From: Streptomyces sp. NBC_01549
GTDB lineage: Bacteria > Actinomycetota > Actinomycetes > Streptomycetales > Streptomycetaceae
Direction: 5' to 3'
Assembly: GCF_026339955.1 (NCBI RefSeq)
Contig: NZ_JAPEPW010000002.1
Coordinates: forward strand, 372,001-436,000
DNA: 64,000 nucleotides
Shown here: in pieces, positions 4,151-14,888 of the stretch
Numbering within the stretch: the stretch's first letter is position 1
Layout of the letters: each line of letters starts with the position of its first letter
Notes under the pieces: model-generated
The model's database searches: none
What the model was told of the DNA's origin: nothing
What the model saw: only the letters and a program-made list of their open reading frames with translations
Program-made: the position numbers and the translations under genes

Positions 4151-4408
4151 CGCGCCGCGAGTGGCGGGCCACGGAGGCGATTCTTGCCCCTGCCTTTACC
4201 TGTGGCGGCCCCGGCGTTGACACGACCGCCCCGCGCGACCGCTGGGCGGCCCATGCAGTGGCCTCACGACATGACCGGTCCGCTGAACGCCAGTCGGGCG
4301 GAACGCCGGACCGAACTCGGTCCGTAGGCGTCAGCGCCTGCGCCCGTCCGACCTGACCCGAAGCCGAGCGGAATCTCGGCAAACAGTGACCGCGGGTCGC
4401 AGGGCGGA

Positions 4409-4430
4409 TTCAACCGGTCGTCGCAACACC
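4409..4430. repeat. left terminal inverted repeat of the IS30 element
   Basis: Reads GGTCGTCGCAACACC at its core (4416-4430) and pairs with 8427-8448 on the opposite strand with three mismatches over 22 bases. It lies 22 bases upstream of the transposase start. Confidence 0.75.
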
Positions 4431-4451
4431 TTGAGAATCCGGAGGTGCGCG

Positions 4452-5370
4452 ATGGGACGAGGTAAGCAGCAGAAGGTGCCGGAGGCGCCTGCGGATGCGC
4501 GACGCCAGTGGGCCGCCGATCGGGCGATGCGACCGCCGATGCGTTCACCGGGTCGGCCGGAGCCGTCTAGTGCGGTGCAGCGGGACTTCTGGCGGCGGAT
4601 CGCGTCGGGAGTGACGACGGCAGAGGCCGCGGCGGCTGTTGGCGTTTCATGGCCGGTCGGATCCCGGTGGTTCCGTCACGCTGGCGGCATGCCGCCCATC
4701 AGCCTGGACGAGCCCACCGGCCGCTACCTGTCGTTCGCCGAGCGCGAGGAGATCGCGCTGCTGCGCGCCCAGGAGATCGGCGTGCGCGAGATCGCCCGCA
4801 GGATCGGCCGCGACGCGGGCACGATCTCACGCGAGCTGCGCCGCAACGCGGCGACCCGCCGCGGCAAGCCGGTCTACCGGGCTCTGGTCGCGCAGTGGAA
4901 GGCGCAGCAGGCCACGAAGCGCCCGAAGACTGCGAAGCTCGCAGGCAACGACAGGTTGCGTGAGTACGTGCAGGATCGGCTCGCCGGCAGTGTCCGTCGT
5001 CCCGACGGCACGATCGTCACCGGTCCCAAGACGCCCGCGTGGAAGGGGCTGAACAAGCCGCATCGGCAGGACAGACGATGGGCGACGGCATGGAGCCCGG
5101 AGCAGATCTCCCACCGTCTCCATGCCGACTTCCCCGATGATGAGTCCATGCGCATCAGCCACGAAGCCATCTACCAGGCGCTGTTCATCGAGGGCCGTGG
5201 CGCGCTCAAGCGGGAGCTGGTCACATGTCTGCGTACCGGCCAGGCGCTGCGGACTCCCCGTGCACGGTCACAGAACAAGCCGCAGGGGCATGTCACCGCG
5301 GACGTCGTCCTCAGCGAACGCCCCGCCGAGGCTGGGGACCGCGCGGTCCCCGGACACTGGGAAGGCGATT
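4452..5370 (+). CDS. IS30-family transposase, 5' exon
   Basis: First 306 codons plus one base of the transposase. It carries the N-terminal helix-turn-helix (FAEREEIALLRAQ, then ARRIGRDAGTISRELRRN) typical of IS30 and reaches PGHWEGD, whose Asp is the first catalytic residue of the DDE triad. The ATG at 4452 follows GGAGG by a few bases; a GTG at 4386 would be upstream of the inverted repeat and is rejected. The coding sequence is cut exactly after that Asp codon plus one T, where the group II intron begins. The rest is at 7930-8447; splicing gives a continuous 478-residue protein. Confidence 0.85.
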
Positions 5371-6043
5371 GTGCGACACGAAGTTGCACGAATTTGAGTG
5401 GACTGACCGATTGGAGAGGCAGTTGATGAAGCTGTAGGTGCAGTCACGGGTCCGTGTCCGTATGACCCGTCCCCACCCTTGACGTGCGATGCCGGTAACG
5501 GCGTGGTGCGAAGCTCAGGGGAAAGCCCAAGGACTTCCGTTCCATCCGGGAGTTACCGGCAAGGGGAAGACCGGACGGGTGAAGTACATGAACTCCCGAT
5601 GATGCCTCGTGATCCCAAGCCCTGCCGATGGAATGTGTGAGTGGGGTGTATGGCTAGCCGTTGAGAAGCGGCAGGCGCTGGCCGGTAGAGGTCACTCCGG
5701 CCAGGTAGACACCGTCGCCTCGGGGTAAAGGGAGCACCCACCCCGGTCGTATCTCATTCGTGTGGAACGTGGAAACCCCGTTGGGGTCCGGGCCTTTTTT
5801 TTTGGCTTGGTCAGCCGACCGTAAGGAAGGCTCAACTCCCCAGCGGGAACAGGACGGCCCAAGAAGCCAATGCCGGAAGCCGAAAGGAATCGGGAACCCG
5901 GGGCGGACGATCGGACTCTCCGCCGGTCGCCCCGCACAACCGTCCGGATACGGGTGAACTGCCCGGACCCGAAAGGGTGCTGACGTGGGCCGGGTGAGCC
6001 TGTGGAGAATCACTGAACGACGACGACGGAACCGAGGGGCAAG

Positions 6044-7855
6044 TTGGACACAATGCAGATAGCGGACGAACCGGCCTCGGCCCTTCCGACTGCTTCTGTG
6101 CCGGTGAACGGACCCGAGGGCGAAGACTTGGACTGGGCGTCGATTGACTGGCGGCGGGTCGAGGAGGACGTACGGCGTCTGCGGCAGAGAATCTTCACGG
6201 CATCGCAGGCAGGGGACCTGAAGAAGGTCCGCAATTTGCAGAAGCTGATGCTCCGGTCCCGCTCGAACACGCTCCTGAGCGTGCGACGGGTCACGGAGAT
6301 CAATGCTGGACGCGCGACGGCGGGAGTCGACGGAAAAGTCGTGTTGCTTTCCCAGTCCAAGGCCGCATTGGTCAAATGGGTCCAGCATCGCGCCCGACCG
6401 TGGATTCCCAAGCCCGTCAAGCGGGTGTTTATCCCCAAACCGGGGACCATGAAGAAGCGCGGACTCGGAATTCCCGTGATTGTTGACCGGTGTCTGCAAA
6501 CTGTGGCATTGGGAGCATTGGAGCCCGAGTGGGAAGCGCGGTTCGAGCCGAAGTCGTACGGCTTTCGGCCCGGCCGCGGCTGTCACGACGCGATCGGGGC
6601 CATCTACTCCACGCTCAACGGGAAGAACCCGCAGCGTGCGTGGGTACTCGACGCAGACCTGACGGCGGCGTTCGACCGCATCGACCATGATCGGCTCATG
6701 GCCGCTCTCGGCACCTTCCCCGCCCGGGGACTGGTCCGTCAGTGGCTGAAGGCCGGGGTTGTGAATCGCGGTCGGTTCGCCCCGACCGAGGAGGGAACTC
6801 CGCAGGGTGGGGTGATCAGCCCGTTGCTCTTCAACGTGGCCCTGCACGGGATGGAGGAAGCCGCAGGGGTCCGCTATTACACCACCGGCAGAGATGTCGG
6901 GAGTGCACAGAGCGGCAGCCCCGTGCTGGTGCGGTACGCAGATGATTTTGTCGCGATGTGCACCAGTCGTGAACAGGCCGAACAGGTCAAGGAACGGCTG
7001 GCTGCATGGCTGACGCCCAGGGGACTCGCCTTCCACGAGGACAAGACACGAATCGTCCACGCGGAGAGCGGGTTCGACTTCCTGGGGTTCAACGTCCGCC
7101 GCTATCACGGCAAACTGCTGATCAAGCCGAGCAGAGCGGCTCAGAGACGGATCCGGGAACGGCTCAGCACCGAAATGGTGGCCCTGCGAGGGGCCAACGC
7201 CGGTGCGGTACTCAAGAAGATCAACCCGATCGTGCGGGGTTGGTCAGCCTATTACCGGACGGTGGTGTCCAGCGAGATCTTCACGGCGCTGGACAATCAC
7301 ATGTGGAAGCTCGCCTACAAGTGGGCCAAACACAGCCATCCGAACAAGCCGAAGCACTGGATATCCGACAAGTACTTCGGCCGGTTCAACAAGTCCAGGA
7401 ACGACCGGTGGGTGTTCGGTGACCGCGACAGCGGCGCCTACCTGCTCAAGTTCTCCTGGACGAAGATAGTCCGGCACCAGTTAGTCAAGGGGAAGGCGTC
7501 CCCGGACGACCCTGCTCTGGAATCCTATTGGGCTCAGCGTCGCCGCAAAGGAACCCCTTTACCAGTCGATGCTATGACCGTGCGTCTACTACAGGCACAG
7601 CACGGCCGTTGCTCGATCTGCGGAGGGCTCCTGCTGCACGCCGACCACCCGCCGCAAAGCCCAGGAGAATGGGAAGCGTGGCGGGTTGTCATCCGGAAGG
7701 CGATCTCCAAGCAATACATCGCCTTCCGGAACTGGAGCACGCCGGACGGTCAACGACTCCGTCTCCTCCACACCCATTGTCAACGGCGGAATGGAGCCGC
7801 TGCGATGACGAGACCAGCACTTTTGCCTGCCAGCGAGCCTCCGGGACTTGCTTGA
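6044..7855 (+). CDS. ltrA: group II intron reverse transcriptase/maturase with HNH domain
   Basis: Intron-encoded protein that binds its own intron RNA, assists splicing and reverse-transcribes it during retrohoming. The 603 residues contain the RT fingers and palm (IPKPGTMKKRGLGIPVIVDR, FRPGRGCHDAI, DADLTAAFDRIDHD, GTPQGGVISPLLFN), catalytic Y298-A-D-D301, a maturase X domain with GWSAYYR near residue 400, and a C-terminal HNH/zinc nuclease region with C523-S-I-C526 and a later HTHC. The DNA-cleavage domain suggests full mobility. Start: TTG at 6044 lies just after GAGGGG; an ATG three codons in is the alternative. All key catalytic residues are present. Confidence 0.93.
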   Translation: MDTMQIADEPASALPTASVPVNGPEGEDLDWASIDWRRVEEDVRRLRQRIFTASQAGDLKKVRNLQKLMLRSRSNTLLSVRRVTEINAGRATAGVDGKVVLLSQSKAALVKWVQHRARPWIPKPVKRVFIPKPGTMKKRGLGIPVIVDRCLQTVALGALEPEWEARFEPKSYGFRPGRGCHDAIGAIYSTLNGKNPQRAWVLDADLTAAFDRIDHDRLMAALGTFPARGLVRQWLKAGVVNRGRFAPTEEGTPQGGVISPLLFNVALHGMEEAAGVRYYTTGRDVGSAQSGSPVLVRYADDFVAMCTSREQAEQVKERLAAWLTPRGLAFHEDKTRIVHAESGFDFLGFNVRRYHGKLLIKPSRAAQRRIRERLSTEMVALRGANAGAVLKKINPIVRGWSAYYRTVVSSEIFTALDNHMWKLAYKWAKHSHPNKPKHWISDKYFGRFNKSRNDRWVFGDRDSGAYLLKFSWTKIVRHQLVKGKASPDDPALESYWAQRRRKGTPLPVDAMTVRLLQAQHGRCSICGGLLLHADHPPQSPGEWEAWRVVIRKAISKQYIAFRNWSTPDGQRLRLLHTHCQRRNGAAAMTRPALLPASEPPGLA

Positions 7856-7929
7856 GCCGTGTGCGGTGAATAGCTGCTTGCACGGTTCTGAGGGGGCGGG
7901 GACGCAGTAATGCGTCCCCGCTACCCGAC
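7854..7929 (+). ncRNA. group II intron domains V and VI
   Basis: Domain V spans about 7854-7888 as a 35-nt hairpin that begins GAGCCGTGTGCGG and closes with GCACGGTTC, including the catalytic AGC triad. Domain VI follows as an 11-bp stem (GCGGGGACGCA at 7896-7906 with its complement at 7911-7921). The A at 7923, seven bases before the 3' splice site, is the probable branch point. The maturase stop codon lies immediately upstream. Confidence 0.85.
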
Positions 7930-8447
7930 TGATCATCGGAACGGGCCGATCCGCAATCGGCACGCTCGTCGAGCGCAGCAGCCGCTCCACGCTCCTCGTG
8001 CACCTGCCTCGGCTCGAGGGCTGGGGCGAGATTCCGCCCGTGAAGAACGGCACCTCACTCGGGGGCTATGGCGCGATCGCGATGAACGCGGCGCTCACGA
8101 CATCAATGACGCGGCTGCCCGAGCAGCTACGCAAGACCCTCACCTGGGACCGTGGGAAGGAACTCTCCGGCCATGCCCAGTTCGCTCTCGACACCGGGAC
8201 GAAGGTGTTCTTCGCCGATCCGCACTCGCCCTGGCAACGACCGACGAACGAGAACACGAACGGGCTGCTGCGTCAGTACTTCCCGAAGGGCACCGATCTC
8301 TCCCGGTGGTCGTCCACGGACCTCGAAGCCGTCGCCATGGCGATCAACAACCGGCCCCGCAAGATCCTCGGTTGGCGGACGCCGACCGAGGTCTTCGAAG
8401 AGCAGCTACGCTCGCTGCAACAGCCCGGTGTTGCAACGACCAATTGA
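7930..8447 (+). CDS. IS30-family transposase, 3' exon
   Basis: C-terminal 173 residues of the transposase, beginning inside the Leu codon that the intron splits. It carries LIIGTGRSAIGTLVERSSR, the second catalytic Asp in TWDRGKEL and the final Glu in NENTNGLLRQYFP. Exon lengths 919 + 518 make a multiple of three, and the stop codon lies inside the right inverted repeat. The segment from 7998 could also be read as a stand-alone frame, but that product would lack the first catalytic Asp. Confidence 0.85.
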
Positions 8448-8635: not shown

Positions 8636-9175
8636 TCAATGGTTGGCCGCCGCGGCCCCGCTGTCGGCGCAGCCGTCTCCGCCGAGGAACTCTCGGGCGC
8701 CGCGGAGTCTGGTCCGCAACCGCTGCTGCGTTGCGCGGCTGTCGAGGCGTACGTCGAGGGCTCCGGGCAGGCAGGAGTCGGCGCGTCGCCCGGCGGGCAG
8801 TCGCACGCCGCCAAGTCCTTCGCGCCGGGCGATGAGCACACCGAGGTCGTGACGGCTCAGGGCGTCCGGCCCGGCAAGGTGGAACACCCCGGCCACGTCG
8901 GACAGCACGACCTCCCACAAGGCTGCGGCCAGATCTTCGACATGTACCGGGCAGCGGATGTCGTCGGTGAACAAGACCCCATTGCGCGTACCCACAGCCA
9001 GGGCGCGCACCATAAGCTCGTGCCCGGATCGGCCGTGCCCGATGATCAGCGAGGTGCGTGCGACGGCGGCGCCCGGCACCAAGAGGCGCACGGCCGTCTC
9101 GGCGGCGGCCTTTGCGGCGCCGTACGGGGTGACCGGATCGGGCAGGCAGCTCTCGTCGTAACGGATGCGTGCGCC
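8636..9175 (-). pseudogene. SDR/NAD-dependent epimerase (RmlD-like), 3' part, split by transposon
   Basis: C-terminal 179 codons of an extended SDR of the dTDP-4-dehydrorhamnose reductase/sugar epimerase type. Seen: GARIRYDESCLPDPVTPYGAAKAAAE with the catalytic YxxxK, ARTSLIIGHG, DDIRCPVHVEDLA and GVFHLAGPDALSR. The 5' part lies 5.4 kb away at 14568-14888. Joining base 9175 to base 14568 gives GTG TTC TCC GGC GCA CGC (VFSGAR), continuous and in frame, so the gene was intact before insertion. An in-frame start within this fragment would give a protein without the cofactor-binding motif. Confidence 0.85.
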
Positions 9176-9293
9176 AGTTATCTGCGGTCCTGATCTTGCC
9201 CTTGTTGTGTGAGGCACATGGGCTCATCAGTCCGTGTGACTGTGAGATATCTGTTGGTTGTGAGGCACGTCTTGACGGTCAGTCATCGGTGTC
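9176..9293. promoter_or_regulatory. left end of the transposon: terminal repeat and recombinase-site-like repeats
   Basis: GTTATCT at 9177-9183 is the terminal inverted repeat. GTGAGGCAC occurs twice (9209-9217 and 9260-9268), 51 bases apart in the same orientation. These are plausible arm-type binding sites for TnpA/TnpB and lie where the tnpA promoter must be. Confidence 0.55.
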
Positions 9294-10439
9294 ATGAAGT
9301 TCCGTGCTGCATGCGCCGAGTCCCCGGTCGACGGGGGCCCGCTGTGGGTCGTGGTCGATGAGTCGTACCGGCTTCACCATGAGTCCTGCCTGTTCCTGGC
9401 TTCGTTGCGGGACATGGGTCGGTCGTTCAACACCGAGAAGGCGTACGGCATCCGTTCCGCTCTGCTGCTGACCTGGTGCTCCGAACGTGGCCTCGATTGG
9501 AAGTCGATCACGCTGCTCGACCTGGCCCGGTTCCTGCGTTGGCTGGTGGACGAGCCGCTACCTCCACGCAGCCCGCGGTTGTCGTCCCCGCCGCGCTTCC
9601 GGATGGAGAAGTCCGCGAACGCGGTGATGACCGGGGTCTGCGAGTTCTTGCGGTTCTGCTCGCGCAATGAGTGGGTGGACGCGGAGCTTGTGGGCCGGCT
9701 GTCGGAACCGAAGTACCTGAGCTGGCTTCCCCCGGGCAAGGATGCGGGCGAGGACGGCCAGTTCCGCACCGTGAGGACGAAGATCCTCAAGCTGCCGGAG
9801 CCGTCCGAAGAGGCCGTGGAGTATCTGCCTCCGGAGGAGGCTGACCAGCTGTTCCAGGTCGCCACGCGGGCCCGCGACCGGTTCCTGATCGCCCTGCTCG
9901 GCTGCACTGGAGAGCGGATCAGCGAGGCACTGGGACTACGCCGTCAGGACATGCACCTGCTCAGCGACTCACGGATGCTCGGATGCCGGGTCGAGGGCCC
10001 GCACATTCACGTCCGGCGGCGGGCGAACAACGCCAACGGAGCCCTGGCCAAGTCCCGCTTCGCCCGGGTTATCCCGGTGACCGAGGACCTCGCCGGGCTC
10101 TATGCGGACTACCAGCTCGAACGGGACGAGGTCCCCGAGGCGGCCGATTGCGACATGGTCTTCGTGAACCTCTTCCACGTCCCGCTCGGGCGACCGATGC
10201 GCTACGGCACGGCGAAGGAGCTCTTCGACCGGCTGGCGAAGAAGACCCAGCTCACCGCACGTCCGCACATGCTGCGGCACGGGGCGGCCACGGCCTGGGT
10301 CCGCGCCGGCGTCGACGAGGACGTGGTCCAGGACCTGATGGGGCACGTCTCCCGGTCCTCGCTGACTCCCTACTTGCACGCCAGTGACGCGGACAAGCGG
10401 GCGGCAGTCGAGCTGGTGGCAGCAGGGAGGCGCTCGTGA
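9294..10439 (+). CDS. tnpA: tyrosine recombinase TnpA of a Tn554-like transposon
   Basis: Site-specific recombinase of 381 residues that, with TnpB and TnpC, moves the element. An N-terminal core-binding (SAM-like) domain is followed by the catalytic domain: Arg in TGERISEALGLRRQD near residue 207, H325-M-L-R328-H329, His351 in LMGH, and nucleophile Tyr360 in TPYLH. All catalytic positions are present. Its TGA overlaps the GTG of tnpB, indicating translational coupling. Confidence 0.9.
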   Translation: MKFRAACAESPVDGGPLWVVVDESYRLHHESCLFLASLRDMGRSFNTEKAYGIRSALLLTWCSERGLDWKSITLLDLARFLRWLVDEPLPPRSPRLSSPPRFRMEKSANAVMTGVCEFLRFCSRNEWVDAELVGRLSEPKYLSWLPPGKDAGEDGQFRTVRTKILKLPEPSEEAVEYLPPEEADQLFQVATRARDRFLIALLGCTGERISEALGLRRQDMHLLSDSRMLGCRVEGPHIHVRRRANNANGALAKSRFARVIPVTEDLAGLYADYQLERDEVPEAADCDMVFVNLFHVPLGRPMRYGTAKELFDRLAKKTQLTARPHMLRHGAATAWVRAGVDEDVVQDLMGHVSRSSLTPYLHASDADKRAAVELVAAGRRS

Positions 10440-12943
10440 CCAGTCCCGCCCCGATCACAGCGGAGCCGCACTCCGACGTCGTTCCCCTCGACCTGACGGC
10501 CTGGACGAGCTGGCTGCAGGACCAGGTCGATCCTCTCTGGCGGCCGGGCGAGTGGTCCCAGCAGGCATGGTTCTTCGACGGCGACGTGGACAACCCGCGC
10601 ACCTCGGCCTCGAAGTGCGCCACCACCTCGTGCTGGACCGTGATGCCCTCCCGCAACCTGCTCTGCCGGCACTGCCTGGATGCTCACAGGATCAGCACGC
10701 TGAGCCGGGAAGAGTTCGTCGCCACCTACCAGCGGCCCCGACGGATCCGCACGAAATGGGGGTCCGAACGCGAGCCATGCGCTCTGGAAGGTCTCTCCGG
10801 CAGATGCGAACGGCCGGCCTACAGCGGCAAGATCTGCCGCACCCACTACTCGCGTTGGCGCCGGCGCCGGAATCCGGAAACCACAGTCGAGGAATGGCTG
10901 GCTGTCACCACTGCGGAGCCGCTGGAAGCAAGGCCGACCTGCATCGTCCGGGGCTGCTTCAACCAGCGAGTGGTCGCGGGACTCTGCGGCACGCACGTCC
11001 AGCGGTGGGACCGTGACAAGAGGGCGGGCGCGACCCGCGACCCCGAGCAATGGGCCCGGCAAGTGGCCACACGTCTGCTCACCCACCAGTTCACCCTGCG
11101 GGACCTGGAGGACCCTGTCCGCTGGGAGCTTCTCTACGCACTGCAGCAACGGGATGCCCGCGGCGGCATCATCGAGCCGATGGCCACCCGCCATCTGACC
11201 CGCCGGCTGGAGGGCGTCCCGAGCCTGCTGACGGTGGACGTCGCGGCCTTCATCGAGGGGATCTACCAGCACCACAACCTCGCGGCCTTGATCCGGGAGA
11301 CCGTTCGAGGCCTGCGCCGAGCCTCTCTGTCGTTCCGCGGCCTGACGCCCACCGATGCCGACACGTGGGACCTGGGCTGGATGAATCTGCGGTCCCCGGC
11401 GCTGGGCGGGCGCCGCAGCCGCCCGGGGCAGGTCGACGCTTCCGCCATCCGCCAGCCGTGGCTCCGAGAGGTGATCAAGACATGGGCCACCACGGTCAGC
11501 TTGGACAGTGGCAAGTTCAAGCAGGTGTTCGCTGCTTGCGTCGTCGCTTCCGATGCACTGCATGCACGGCCCGGCGGGGGCCAGGACTACACGAAGCTGC
11601 GGTTCGCCGACATGCAGGCGGTCTTCACCGCGATGAGCCGCATCCGACGCACCACCGATGACGAACTCGCCAGCCGAAACCATCGCCAGCAGTCGTTCGG
11701 CTACTTCATGGAAATCGTCGACTTCGGCCGCAAGACGGACATGCTGACCGGCATGCCCGGCAGCTTCGACCGGGACAAAACACTGGTCCTGCCGCCCGAG
11801 GAGACGAGCGAGGACGCCGCCGGCCGGGCCGTCCCTGAGCCCGTCATCGCCCAGCTCGATGCCCACCTTGCCCTGATGGGAGCCGGCTTCCGCTACGGCG
11901 AGATGGAGCCGGCCGACGTCGAGCTGATGATGCAGACGGCCTACTTGGTCCTACGTGATACCGGCCGCCGTCCCGTCGAGATCGCCAGCCTGCGGCTCGA
12001 GTGCGTGGAGACCCACGGAGTCGAAGACACCCTGATCTGGGACAACGTCAAGAAGCGCCGCTACGGCCGCAAGCTGCCGATCACCCGCGAGACCGCCGCG
12101 GTGATCAGGACCTGGCAGTCCCGTCGACGTCAGCTGGAGGTTCCCTCCCGCAGCCGGAAGTACCTGTTCCCGTCGATCACTGGCCGCAGCGGGATCGCGC
12201 ACATGGGGTCCAACCTGGCCAACGCGATGCGGGACTGGGTCGCGGCCATCCCGGTGCTGCTGAGCGACGAACTGGACGAGCACGGCAACAGGCTGCCGTT
12301 CGACCGCTCGCTGATCTTCCTCTACGCGTTCCGGCACGCCTATGCCCAGCGTTACGCCGACGCCGGCGTCCCCGTTGACGTGCTCAAAGAGCTCATGGAC
12401 CACCGGTCGATCGTCACCACGATGTCGTACTACCAGGTGTCCCTGAAGCGGAAACGCGAAGCGATCACGACCATGCGGCAGCACACCATCGACCGTTCCG
12501 GACGGCCGGCACCGTTCACCAGCACCGCCGACTACGAGGCGCAATCGGTCGCCGTCCCGTTCGGCAACTGTCGCGAGCCCAGCAACGTCAAGGCGGGCGG
12601 CAAAGCCTGCGCGATTCGCTTTCAGTGCGCCGGCTGCGGCTTCTATCGCCCCGACCCGTCCTACCTGCCCGCGATCGAAGAGCACGTCAACGACCTGCGG
12701 GCCGACCGCGAGACTGCCAAGGCCATGGACGCCGACGACTTCGTCGTCCGCAACCTCGCCGACCAGATCACCGCCTTCACGACCGTCGCCGACACCATGC
12801 GTGACCGGCTCAGCAAGCTCCCCCAGGACGAGCGCGAGGAGATCGAGGAGGCCAGCGCGGTCCTGCGGAAGGTTCGCGCGACCCGGGACCACAAGCTGCT
12901 GCCGCTGACCGTGATCCGCAAGGACGCCCCGGATGCCTGCTGA
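10436..12943 (+). CDS. tnpB: tyrosine recombinase TnpB of a Tn554-like transposon
   Basis: Large 835-residue second recombinase. The N-terminal third has repeated Cys/His clusters (CRHCLDAH, CRTHYSRW, CGTHVQRW) that look like small zinc-binding modules. The catalytic domain has Arg in DTGRRPVEIASLRLE (about residue 511), FRHAYAQRYADAG (about 631), LMDHRS and MSYYQVS with the nucleophile at Tyr665 or Tyr666. The C-terminal region CAIRFQCAGCGFYRPDPSYL resembles the cysteine-rich tail of Tn554 TnpB. The start GTG overlaps the tnpA stop; the stop overlaps the tnpC start by 11 bases. Apparently intact. Confidence 0.88.
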   Translation: MTSPAPITAEPHSDVVPLDLTAWTSWLQDQVDPLWRPGEWSQQAWFFDGDVDNPRTSASKCATTSCWTVMPSRNLLCRHCLDAHRISTLSREEFVATYQRPRRIRTKWGSEREPCALEGLSGRCERPAYSGKICRTHYSRWRRRRNPETTVEEWLAVTTAEPLEARPTCIVRGCFNQRVVAGLCGTHVQRWDRDKRAGATRDPEQWARQVATRLLTHQFTLRDLEDPVRWELLYALQQRDARGGIIEPMATRHLTRRLEGVPSLLTVDVAAFIEGIYQHHNLAALIRETVRGLRRASLSFRGLTPTDADTWDLGWMNLRSPALGGRRSRPGQVDASAIRQPWLREVIKTWATTVSLDSGKFKQVFAACVVASDALHARPGGGQDYTKLRFADMQAVFTAMSRIRRTTDDELASRNHRQQSFGYFMEIVDFGRKTDMLTGMPGSFDRDKTLVLPPEETSEDAAGRAVPEPVIAQLDAHLALMGAGFRYGEMEPADVELMMQTAYLVLRDTGRRPVEIASLRLECVETHGVEDTLIWDNVKKRRYGRKLPITRETAAVIRTWQSRRRQLEVPSRSRKYLFPSITGRSGIAHMGSNLANAMRDWVAAIPVLLSDELDEHGNRLPFDRSLIFLYAFRHAYAQRYADAGVPVDVLKELMDHRSIVTTMSYYQVSLKRKREAITTMRQHTIDRSGRPAPFTSTADYEAQSVAVPFGNCREPSNVKAGGKACAIRFQCAGCGFYRPDPSYLPAIEEHVNDLRADRETAKAMDADDFVVRNLADQITAFTTVADTMRDRLSKLPQDEREEIEEASAVLRKVRATRDHKLLPLTVIRKDAPDAC

Positions 12944-13529
12944 GACATCCGAGAAGCCCTCCAGGACACCCGCAGACATCCTCAAGGCCGCACGTCAACG
13001 GGACAGTGCCGACAAACGGGGACGCGTCCTCAAGGCCGTCCAGGACATGCTCCGCGACAACCGCCGGATCACCTTCGCCGCGGTCGCCCGCGAAGCCGGC
13101 GTCTCCAGCTGGCTCGTCTATGCTCCTGGCCTGCGCGAACGCATCGATCAGGCACGAGCCCGACAGGCTGCCCAAGGCCACCAGGACCAGCGGAGCGGGC
13201 GGAAGGTCTCCACCGCCAGCGAGCAGACCGACCTGCTTCTCGCCCGACAGGAGATCAAACAGCTCCGAACCGAGAACGGACAGCTACGGCAACAAGCCCG
13301 CATTCATCTGGGCCAACAGGTCGAACAGCTAGGCAACCACGACCTGGTCAACCGCATCAGCGAGCTCACCGAGGAGAACCTACGACTCTCCACGGCGGAA
13401 CGGCAGGCGACCACAGAGAACACACAGCTCCGGCAACGAGTCACCGAGCTCGAGGACGACCTGGCAGCTGCCCGCACAAGCCTCCGCCGCATGATCCGCA
13501 ACGAGAATCGGTTGCCACCAGAGCGCTGA
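12933..13529 (+). CDS. tnpC: TnpC-like transposition accessory protein
   Basis: 198-residue protein at the conserved third position of the Tn554 operon. The N-terminal half has an alpha-helical DNA-binding look (ADKRGRVLKAVQDML, ITFAAVAREAGVSSWLVY, a helix-turn-helix). The C-terminal half is a long Gln/Glu/Arg-rich coiled coil (about residues 95-190). In Tn554, TnpC affects orientation and frequency of transposition; this role is transferred by position and architecture. The start overlaps the end of tnpB. Confidence 0.75.
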   Translation: MPAETSEKPSRTPADILKAARQRDSADKRGRVLKAVQDMLRDNRRITFAAVAREAGVSSWLVYAPGLRERIDQARARQAAQGHQDQRSGRKVSTASEQTDLLLARQEIKQLRTENGQLRQQARIHLGQQVEQLGNHDLVNRISELTEENLRLSTAERQATTENTQLRQRVTELEDDLAAARTSLRRMIRNENRLPPER

Positions 13530-13564
13530 ATCCCGCCGATCATCGGTTCTGGAATCATTCGCTC

Positions 13565-14074
13565 ATGGAATTCGAACTCACGCCGCCCACCGGTCTCGGC
13601 GCCCTGGTCATCGGCATGCCCCGCGAGGCGGCAGACCAAGCGCTCGCCTCGTTCCGCGATTCCTCAGCGATCTCGGAATCAGACCAATTGGGCAGGTTCG
13701 TCTTCCGGCCAAGCGGCCTGATGGTCAGCATTCACTGCTCGCGCGGCAAGCTGGAAGCAATCGAGCTGGGCCGACCCGCCAGCGGCCAAGACATCGTCCG
13801 GTTCCGCGGCATCGATGTCTTCGGTCTGCCCGCTGCCGAGGTGGTCACCCAGCTGCGAGGGCTCGCCACGATCACCGAGGCCGAGGACGACCCGGCCTCC
13901 TTCATCGCACCAGACCTTCTTCTCAGCTTTTGGCGCCCCTTCGAAGCGGACGACAAACCCGACGAAGAACAGGGCTACTACTTCAGCTCGGTCCTCCTGG
14001 CTCGCCCCGGCTACTACGACACACCCGCTGAAGCCGCTGCCAGACTCCGCGCAGCTGGAGACCAGGAGCGATGA
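13565..14074 (+). CDS. transposon cargo protein, unknown function
   Basis: 169-residue acidic soluble protein inside the Tn554-like element, 36 bases after tnpC. No signal peptide or membrane segment. It begins MEFELTPPTGLGALVIGMPR and has an internal LGRFVFRPSGLMVSIHCSRGK segment; the fold looks alpha/beta. I do not recognise a named family. Position in a mobile element suggests an accessory or fitness trait, for example an immunity-type protein, but nothing in the sequence proves it. Confidence 0.65.
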   Translation: MEFELTPPTGLGALVIGMPREAADQALASFRDSSAISESDQLGRFVFRPSGLMVSIHCSRGKLEAIELGRPASGQDIVRFRGIDVFGLPAAEVVTQLRGLATITEAEDDPASFIAPDLLLSFWRPFEADDKPDEEQGYYFSSVLLARPGYYDTPAEAAARLRAAGDQER

Positions 14075-14116
14075 CCTGACGGAGCTCGACTGGTGACGAT
14101 CCAGCGTTGCCGCCCA

Positions 14117-14470
14117 TCAGAGTGGAAGGGCCTCATTAACCAAGGTCTTCAACTCTGCCGGCAGATCAGGTGAGTCCCGCCAGTTCTGGGCGATCAGCAA
14201 GAGCGCGACCCACGCGCCACGCGCCTCAGCGTTCGGCTGCCCGGAGAAAACCGCGTCCAGCACCTGCCTAGCGAGACCGTCGACAACCTCATACAGGGCA
14301 TCGGAGACCTTGCTCACGTCATCCAGAGGCGAGCCCGCAGCATGAGACGGTGCACCGTCGAGCCGGATGGTGACTGAGGCAGCCGAGTACGTCCTTCCAT
14401 GGAGGAAGTCACGAAGGCTGCCAACTTGATGACGAGACGGCAGAAGCGGCTGATCAGGACTCTGAGACAC
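14117..14470 (-). CDS. transposon cargo protein, unknown function
   Basis: 117-residue protein on the opposite strand from the transposition genes, ending 43 bases from the other cargo gene. The C-terminal half (VSDALYEVVDGLARQVLDAV ... WVALLLIAQNWRDSPDLPAEL) is predicted helical; there is no signal peptide. No recognised family. It is the last gene before the right end of the element. Confidence 0.55.
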   Translation of the reverse strand: MSQSPDQPLLPSRHQVGSLRDFLHGRTYSAASVTIRLDGAPSHAAGSPLDDVSKVSDALYEVVDGLARQVLDAVFSGQPNAEARGAWVALLLIAQNWRDSPDLPAELKTLVNEALPL

Positions 14471-14503
14471 CCCGTCACCCTATTTGAAGCGGGACCGTGG
14501 CTA

Positions 14504-14567
14504 ACGTCCCTCACACAGCAGCGAAGCTCTGAGCTGCAACGACGCCACACAAACCCGAGATAACGAC
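14504..14567. repeat. right end of the Tn554-like transposon
   Basis: Contains GTCCCTCACACAG at 14506-14518, an inverted near-copy (two mismatches) of the left-end TTGTGTGAGGCAC, and the terminal AGATAAC at 14558-14564, the inverted partner of GTTATCT at the left end. Confidence 0.6.
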
Positions 14568-14888
14568 GGAGAACACCGCGTCGCTGGAGACATGGACCAG
14601 GCGGCAGCCTTGCTCGACGGCGGCCAGCGCCACGCGGACCGCGCCATCAGCGGTGACCGCCCAGTCGGAATTGCCGCTCGACGCGTTGACCACGACCGAG
14701 GGGGCCACGTCGGCAATCACCCTGGCGACACGCGCGGGGTCCCGGACGTCGAGCTGATGCCAGACGACACCTGAGTCCCTGCCGGGCCGGGACGCGAACG
14801 TCGCGGCCGTCTCATGCCCCGCCAGGGTGGCCTGACGGACCAGTTCGGTGCCCAGGAATCCGCTGCCACCGATGATCAGGACCGTCAT
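14568..14888 (-). pseudogene. SDR/NAD-dependent epimerase (RmlD-like), 5' part, split by transposon
   Basis: N-terminal 107 codons of the interrupted gene: MTVLIIGGSGFLGTELVRQ carries the GxxGxxG cofactor-binding motif, followed by LDVRDPARVARVIADVAPSVV and the VHVSSDAVFS block. The transposon enters within the Ser-Gly of DAVFSG; the remainder is at 8636-9175. The frame is open upstream to 15143, giving a possible 85-residue extension, but the family begins at the Met used here. Confidence 0.85.

Follow-up and report, generated by a model that had tools for sequence, protein, structure and literature searches.

Tn554, of which we take Tn6188 and Tn6674 to be relatives, the SEs and an actinobacterial Tn554-related class are the described systems to which the locus analysed here can be most closely compared. 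As stated in the accessible portions of the sources cited here and below, the hexamer taken along in the Tn554 circle was the one from the radC side, that on the opposite side reflecting the former target (PMC3261861), and in the SEs, reported from Gammaproteobacteria, it is the left hexamer that travels and ends up at the right junction of the new insertion, a footprint rule that is also in print for Tn554-related elements (PMC10214605). The actinobacterial class (Famint27/33 and partners) was named in 2012, with the proposal that multiple copies could reflect several identical or similar attB sites (PMC3414803).

The window, that is, the whole 64,000-nucleotide stretch analysed, is part of contig C11 of a 12.6-Mb genome (G000) and carries the following features.

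8636-9171, minus strand: RmlD-like SDR gene, 3' part (PF04321, E 1e-15)
9172-9177, plus strand: left 6-bp core CGCCAG, putatively target-derived, identical to the right core of copies B and C
9177-14564, plus strand: Tn554-family element, 5388 bp, GTTATCT to AGATAAC, with the same boundaries in two further same-genome copies
9178-14563: functional unit TTATCT...AGATAA, 5386 bp
9178-9183, plus strand: left terminal arm TTATCT
9206-9214, plus strand: subterminal TGTGTGAGG
9294-10439, plus strand: tnpA, 381-aa tyrosine recombinase (PF00589, E 2.1e-25)
10436-12943, plus strand: tnpB, 835-aa long tyrosine recombinase (PF00589, E 5.5e-13)
12933-13529, plus strand: tnpC, 198 aa, DUF6262 (PF19776, E 3.3e-12)
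13565-14074, plus strand: cargo ORF, 169 aa, no family found
14117-14470, minus strand: cargo ORF, 117 aa, no family found
14509-14517, minus strand: inverted copy of subterminal TGTGTGAGG
14558-14563, plus strand: right terminal arm AGATAA, inverted repeat of the left arm
14564-14569, plus strand: right 6-bp core CGACGG, putative footprint of the previous site, identical to the ParE-like-gene core in loci L191 and L192
14570-14888, minus strand: RmlD-like SDR gene, 5' part (PF04321, E 9.4e-16)

The first-pass annotation had described an SDR/epimerase gene split by the insertion, and this was borne out by comparison with related genomes. Both parts, tested as 14568-14888 and 8636-9175 on the minus strand, matched RmlD_sub_bind, and the gene was uninterrupted in 29 of the 29 relatives fetched, which bridge both halves in one frame with the site reading through, so that the split can be taken as real. 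These relatives were the best other matches, four of them 84-90% identical over 106 residues, and SDR relatives were present in 80 of 295 Streptomyces genomes, the own genome included. The 5392 bp of extra DNA noted earlier correspond exactly to the 5386-bp unit plus one 6-bp core, and the previously proposed join of 9175 to 14568 was refined, as it falls within a core that differs by side (CGCCAG on the left, CGACGG on the right). The window copy lacks a target duplication, in agreement with the earlier description, and the terminal GTTATCT inverted repeats were found again at the same ends of two more copies in the genome. The subterminal TGTGTGAGG pair is possibly an accessory recombinase site.

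The gene order, a short TnpA, a long TnpB and then TnpC, is that of the Tn554 family, and the Tn554-like identity assigned at first pass was upheld by the tyrosine recombinases of 381 and 835 aa together with the DUF6262 TnpC. On the basis of what we take to be the catalytic motif of tyrosine recombinases, R208, H325, R328, H351, and Y360 were assigned as catalytic residues of TnpA and are kept in 28 or 29 of 29 rows, and R511, R633, H656, and Y665 of TnpB are kept in all 26 rows, with Y630 at the position of the usual His. No family was found for either cargo ORF in Pfam, NCBIfam or PADLOC, nothing matching the region of the 117-aa ORF was present in the 8L, NBC_00289, and G360 elements, and no resistance cargo was recognised in the window element.

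Elsewhere in the window, at 4386-8447, an apparent transposase gene, presumably of the IS30 type, is interrupted by a group II intron that encodes a reverse transcriptase. The HTH_38 part of the transposase gene lies at 4386-5426 and its rve match at 7998-8447 is weak and below cut-off; the intron is marked by the reverse transcriptase at 6044-7855 and Rfam matches at 5452-5534 and 7852-7929.

A search for close copies at E 1e-170 in 394 Streptomycetaceae genomes returned the own genome and G602 only. Two further copies, designated B and C, lie on contig C9 of the same genome, the window copy being copy A. When aligned, copies A, B, and C measure 5388, 5387, and 5381 bp and differ only at window positions 14213-14219, by 1-bp and 7-bp indels in a short GCGCCAC-like tandem, and their flanks (40 bases per side) look unrelated except for the hexamers; it is this alignment of three same-genome copies that fixes the ends of the element. 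Copy B begins 18 bp upstream of a 191-aa ORF and appears to be intergenic. Copy C is situated within the last codons of a small ParE-like gene; its left core TGATCG is present exactly at the site in the intact ParE-like genes of loci L115, L117, and L118, and its right core is foreign to them.

It is hardly credible that the three copies are a product of recombination or assembly error and not of transposition. The 1.0-Mb linear plasmid record of NBC_01562 (NZ_CP109357.1, L142) opens at base 1 of a 100% identical element, which could be read in favour of such an error and is probably an assembly break at the repeat; in that record the element is followed by copy B's right flank, with 2,000 of 2,000 bases identical, each of the three copies has distinct flanks that start at the same base, and the flanks of copy C match intact ParE-like genes of other genomes, all of which argues for three genuine insertions.

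The junction hexamers of these insertions are related to one another. The left and right cores are CGCCAG and CGACGG in copy A, TTCCTG and CGCCAG in copy B, and TGATCG and CGCCAG in copy C, the left hexamer of A being identical to the right hexamer of both B and C. Under the published Tn554/SE rule, by which the donor's left hexamer is placed at the new right junction, both B and C would descend from copy A, and the three copies fit no other order, since TTCCTG and TGATCG are absent from the right ends of the other copies. No donor of copy A was found in this genome, which holds three copies only.

We consider it likely that the locus represents a complete actinobacterial Tn554-like element that moves via a circle, takes its left hexamer from the target and brings its right one along, and that copy A arrived from a CGACGG site and then became the parent of B and C. 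In the proposed mechanism, the two tyrosine recombinases TnpA and TnpB, aided by TnpC, would join both ends about a 6-bp core into a circle in which AGATAA and TTATCT flank the donor's left hexamer. Recombination of this circle with the 6-bp core of a target would leave the target hexamer at the left junction and deposit the carried hexamer, as a footprint, at the right one. The window copy would accordingly have come to the SDR gene from a site whose CGACGG core is an allele of a ParE-like small gene, and would later have seeded copy B, at an apparently intergenic position, and copy C, in a ParE-like gene, itself staying in place, as expected if movement is by copy-out/copy-in.

Alternatively, the element may transpose by conservative cut-and-paste, with the three copies generated via excision from one replicon copy while the sister kept the element, in which case the SDR gene would be restorable. 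The 6-bp core preserves the reading frame, and Streptomyces mycelium holds several genome copies, both of which count for this scheme. Against it, copy A persists beside two daughters, which fits copy-out without proving it, and in the SEs no empty site was seen after attL x attR recombination and copy-out/copy-in was favoured, in a study which itself notes that Tn554-related elements had not been put to this test (PMC10214605). We therefore regard cut-and-paste as rather unlikely, and movement by copy-out/copy-in remains the preferred reading.

To what extent the SDR gene is a preferred target was judged from 16 insertions of the close subfamily, a loose term here as some of the rows are remnants of 70-630 bp. 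Twelve are in the ParE-like gene, three at the SDR position, and one (copy B) is apparently intergenic, so that insertions recur at two sites, of which the SDR gene is the less frequent in this sample (3 versus 12 of 16). The three SDR insertions share one hexamer position, namely, the window copy, a G360 element that is 96.6% identical over 4331 bp and lies in an SDR relative with CCGGCG on both sides, and a left-end remnant on an S. halstedii plasmid, the latter two in the orientation opposite to the window copy. The earlier suggestion that an SDR gene serves as an attachment site other than radC was thus corroborated by the intact relatives and by two more same-position insertions in other Streptomyces; same-genome copies with the same ends occupy other sites. 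In the S. halstedii locus (L147, 4001-4210), the SDR left-end remnant enters, after about 180 bp, what by eye appears to be a ParE-like 3' end, a junction that is possibly a recombination scar between the two sites.

The insertions in the ParE-like gene occur in both orientations. Nine of the 12 were assigned by a match to its 5' part at E 1e-15 or better, NBC_01369 and K. papulosa by the final ten codons next to the right end (E 0.03 and 0.22), and S. fulvoviolaceus by reading the last codons by eye; the ParE-like label itself is weak (PF15781 at E 0.03-0.06, below cut-off, and nothing in NCBIfam). NZ_LFML01000159 and G071 were counted as one row (S. roseus). Excluded from the 16 were NBC_01562, which has the same insertion as B; G004 and G249, where the left end is degenerate; NBC_00846 (second place) and NBC_01558, whose right-end remnants lack the terminal bases; and MZ04/G602 (80-81% TnpA identity; host gene not assigned). 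The NBC_00846 and NBC_01558 plasmids (L144, 5998-6550; L145, 6001-6515) carry 88-91% identical cargo-side ends with no adjoining tnp annotation.

The two sites differ in their position on plasmids. The ParE-like gene lies within 6 kb of the end of a plasmid record in 37 of the best 60 of 138 matches, as compared to 5.3 expected under uniform placement, and in 26 of 49 (5.0 expected) without the S. clavuligerus records, the count being one of best-scoring matches and of record ends whatever the topology. The corresponding number for SDR matches is 1 of 33 (1.4 expected; the 33 measured among 40 of 41). Beside the core, the consensus right arms of the SDR site and the two ParE-like types share 16 and 14 of 26 positions, levels that are attained at 36 and 405 of the 51,154 control positions, the sites themselves among them; the left arms agree at 8 of 20 and 10 of 20, figures without a control.

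Five copies at a known site have two unlike cores and were used to examine the footprint rule. In four of them (C, S. roseus, NBC_00289, and NBC_00872), the left core equals an allele of the intact host gene and the right core equals none. Each core of copy A differs by a single base from the closest of the 29 SDR alleles, none of which is CGCCAG, and only the left core keeps the Gly codon found in 29 of 29 SDR relatives, so that copy A appears to fit the left-from-target rule by coding, without an exact match; its odd base would be a synonymous change, if it was present in the target. Proximity by one base, as also seen between the left core of G166 and the alleles of its host gene, means little, since 24% of sampled window hexamers come within one base of an allele of the set. 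Comparison thus revealed no target-site duplication, together with left cores from the target and right cores apparently from a previous site, in four copies by alleles and in A by coding only.

The right cores equal an intact allele of either site gene in 8 of 12 cases, four matching the copy's own site and four crossing between sites. By chance, 3.1% of all window hexamers and 7.5% of the C-initial ones equal a site allele, and the latter level was adopted because most cores start with C; the binomial probability at 7.5% is 4e-7, with copies taken as independent, as in all hexamer binomials here. The window right core CGACGG equals the ParE-like allele of L191 and of the own-genome L192, where the gene diverges from its relatives soon past the site, and is also the left core of NBC_00289. 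Conversely, SDR hexamers occur at the right end of three of the nine ParE-like-site copies with a known right end (S. fulvoviolaceus CCGGCT, NBC_00289 CGCCGG, and NBC_00872 CCGGCA; chance 0.004 at 3.9% per core), and copy C is a further cross-site case through A's own hexamer. As read from the hexamers, these cases indicate that traffic between the SDR and ParE-like sites ran both ways.

These counts bear on the view that insertion is of an ordinary kind with little target preference, the SDR gene being incidental and the hexamer sharing a coincidence of GC-rich DNA. Such a view could draw on the apparently intergenic copy B, on an MZ04 relative (L050, 80% TnpA identity) in a gene without assignment, on the two of 12 right cores that match neither site (S. 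roseus CGAGCG and G119 GGCTGG), and on the higher chance level for C-initial cores. It is nevertheless improbable, given the concentration of insertions in one small gene and at one SDR position, the proportions of right cores equal to site alleles and of SDR hexamers at ParE-like sites, and the rarity with which cores of distant relatives match the two allele sets in a rough control (1 of 22 left and 1 of 10 right). Selective insertion with footprints is retained as the main reading. We tentatively extend it, at somewhat less than even confidence, to a life at two addresses, in which the SDR site on large plasmids and chromosomes would be the residence and the ParE-like site, often a few kb from plasmid ends, the vehicle, the hexamer serving as a log of hops, as a Tn554-family counterpart of the two-target strategy of Tn7. 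Our confidence in both was lowered slightly because the cores of A are one base off and the C-first control is less favourable.

TnpA relatives were found at E 1e-40 in 44 of 295 Streptomyces genomes, own included, G360 being the row nearest to the window in the TnpA tree. At E 1e-5, TnpA matched 450 plasmid records, many of which may encode other tyrosine recombinases, including Staphylococcus and Enterococcus records at about 28-30% identity; no relative was found in the viral contigs scanned. In 29 of 32 related loci, pattern searches located a [TAC]TATC[TC] motif at 100-150 bp upstream of where the aligned tnpA begins (without a shuffled control); the motif is exactly TTATCT in 25 of the 32, and AGATAA right-end candidates were located in 13. 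In an S. anthocyanicus plasmid element, outside the 32 loci, TTATCT lies 78 bp upstream of the annotated tnpA start, about 105 bp from the window-aligned start, and simple, non-exhaustive searches gave no convincing TTATCT/AGATAA pair in Priestia and Peribacillus elements. More distant groups are inserted in other genes, namely, DUF4244 (below cut-off), a tyrosine recombinase at its HxxR motif, GmrSD_C, ABC ATPase, DNA ligase, and APH-like genes. The elements of Mycobacterium scrofulaceum, M. parascrofulaceum, and M. gordonae (L056, L057, and L058 near 7886) lie in another tyrosine recombinase gene, at its HxxRHT motif, an identity checked by Pfam for L056 and L058. Loci L111, L112, and L113 apparently share one gene (GmrSD_C in L112) with equal left and right cores in each strain (CGCGTG, CGCGAG, and CGCGGG), a pattern resembling a duplication of 6 bp or, alternatively, footprints left by matching donors. 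L100 and L102 have CACCTG-type cores in a gene that resembles MazG by eye, with no Pfam match in either, and L101 has cores CAGGTG and CACCTG in seemingly the same gene in the opposite orientation. The own genome also holds, at L011 (G000:C2:45000-60000), several tyrosine recombinases (open frames of 294, 394, 406, and 856 aa). The same locus has both TTATCT and AGATAA motifs as well as a TnpC-like match.

The locus is a genuine Tn554-related element whose boundaries are well defined, whose attachment sites are new and whose history is unusually legible; its activity, circle formation, hop direction and copy-out are inferred. If each insertion keeps the hexamer of the prior site, ordinary genome sequence is enough to tell in which direction the element has moved. 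A putative parent with two daughters in one genome, together with relatives that appear to shuttle between two genes, would make questions about Tn554 testable in Streptomyces, i.e., whether it moves by copy-out or cut-and-paste, which hexamer travels, and whether it uses one site or several, and the ParE-like site near plasmid ends suggests a route of spread between strains.

Unlike classical Tn554, the window element is not in radC and its kind has several targets, the SDR gene, the ParE-like gene, and an apparently intergenic site; we use the wording Tn554-related because radC insertion, a trait of the classical subgroup, is absent here. Its TnpB (835 aa) and TnpC (198 aa) are longer than those of Tn554, which we take to be 630 and 125 in length. 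The two tyrosine recombinases with TnpC, the absence of target duplication, and the previous-site hexamer footprint are in good agreement with Tn554 (PMC3261861). With the Famint27/33 class it shares a long and a short tyrosine recombinase, a TnpC-like third gene, and occurrence on plasmids and chromosomes, sometimes in multiple copies, whereas the accessible portion of that source defines no ends or att sites and three near-identical copies are found here in three unlike sequences (PMC3414803). Multi-recombinase modules are also known from GInts, whose GinD shows low identity with TnpC but which carry ginABC and ginD in place of two recombinases and TnpC (PMC5385486), and from RITs, with three tyrosine recombinases versus two here (PMC10214605). 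The SE likeness comprises the target core on the left and the carried footprint on the right (6 bp each), few selected sites, and imperfect inverted terminal repeats (PMC10214605). The window element accordingly shows the 6-bp fingerprint and footprint at attL and attR that are a trait of SEs, but has tnpA, tnpB, tnpC and two family-less ORFs, with no Tfp-like gene, in place of the SE set intA-tfp-intB-srap. In the literature searched, with most subscription journals outside it, no paper gave the ends of the class, the SDR or ParE-like sites, or a hexamer pedigree. The mechanism is already known from Tn554 and SEs, and, as far as the searches show, the exact ends, the two recurrent attachment genes, and the footprint pedigree are new.
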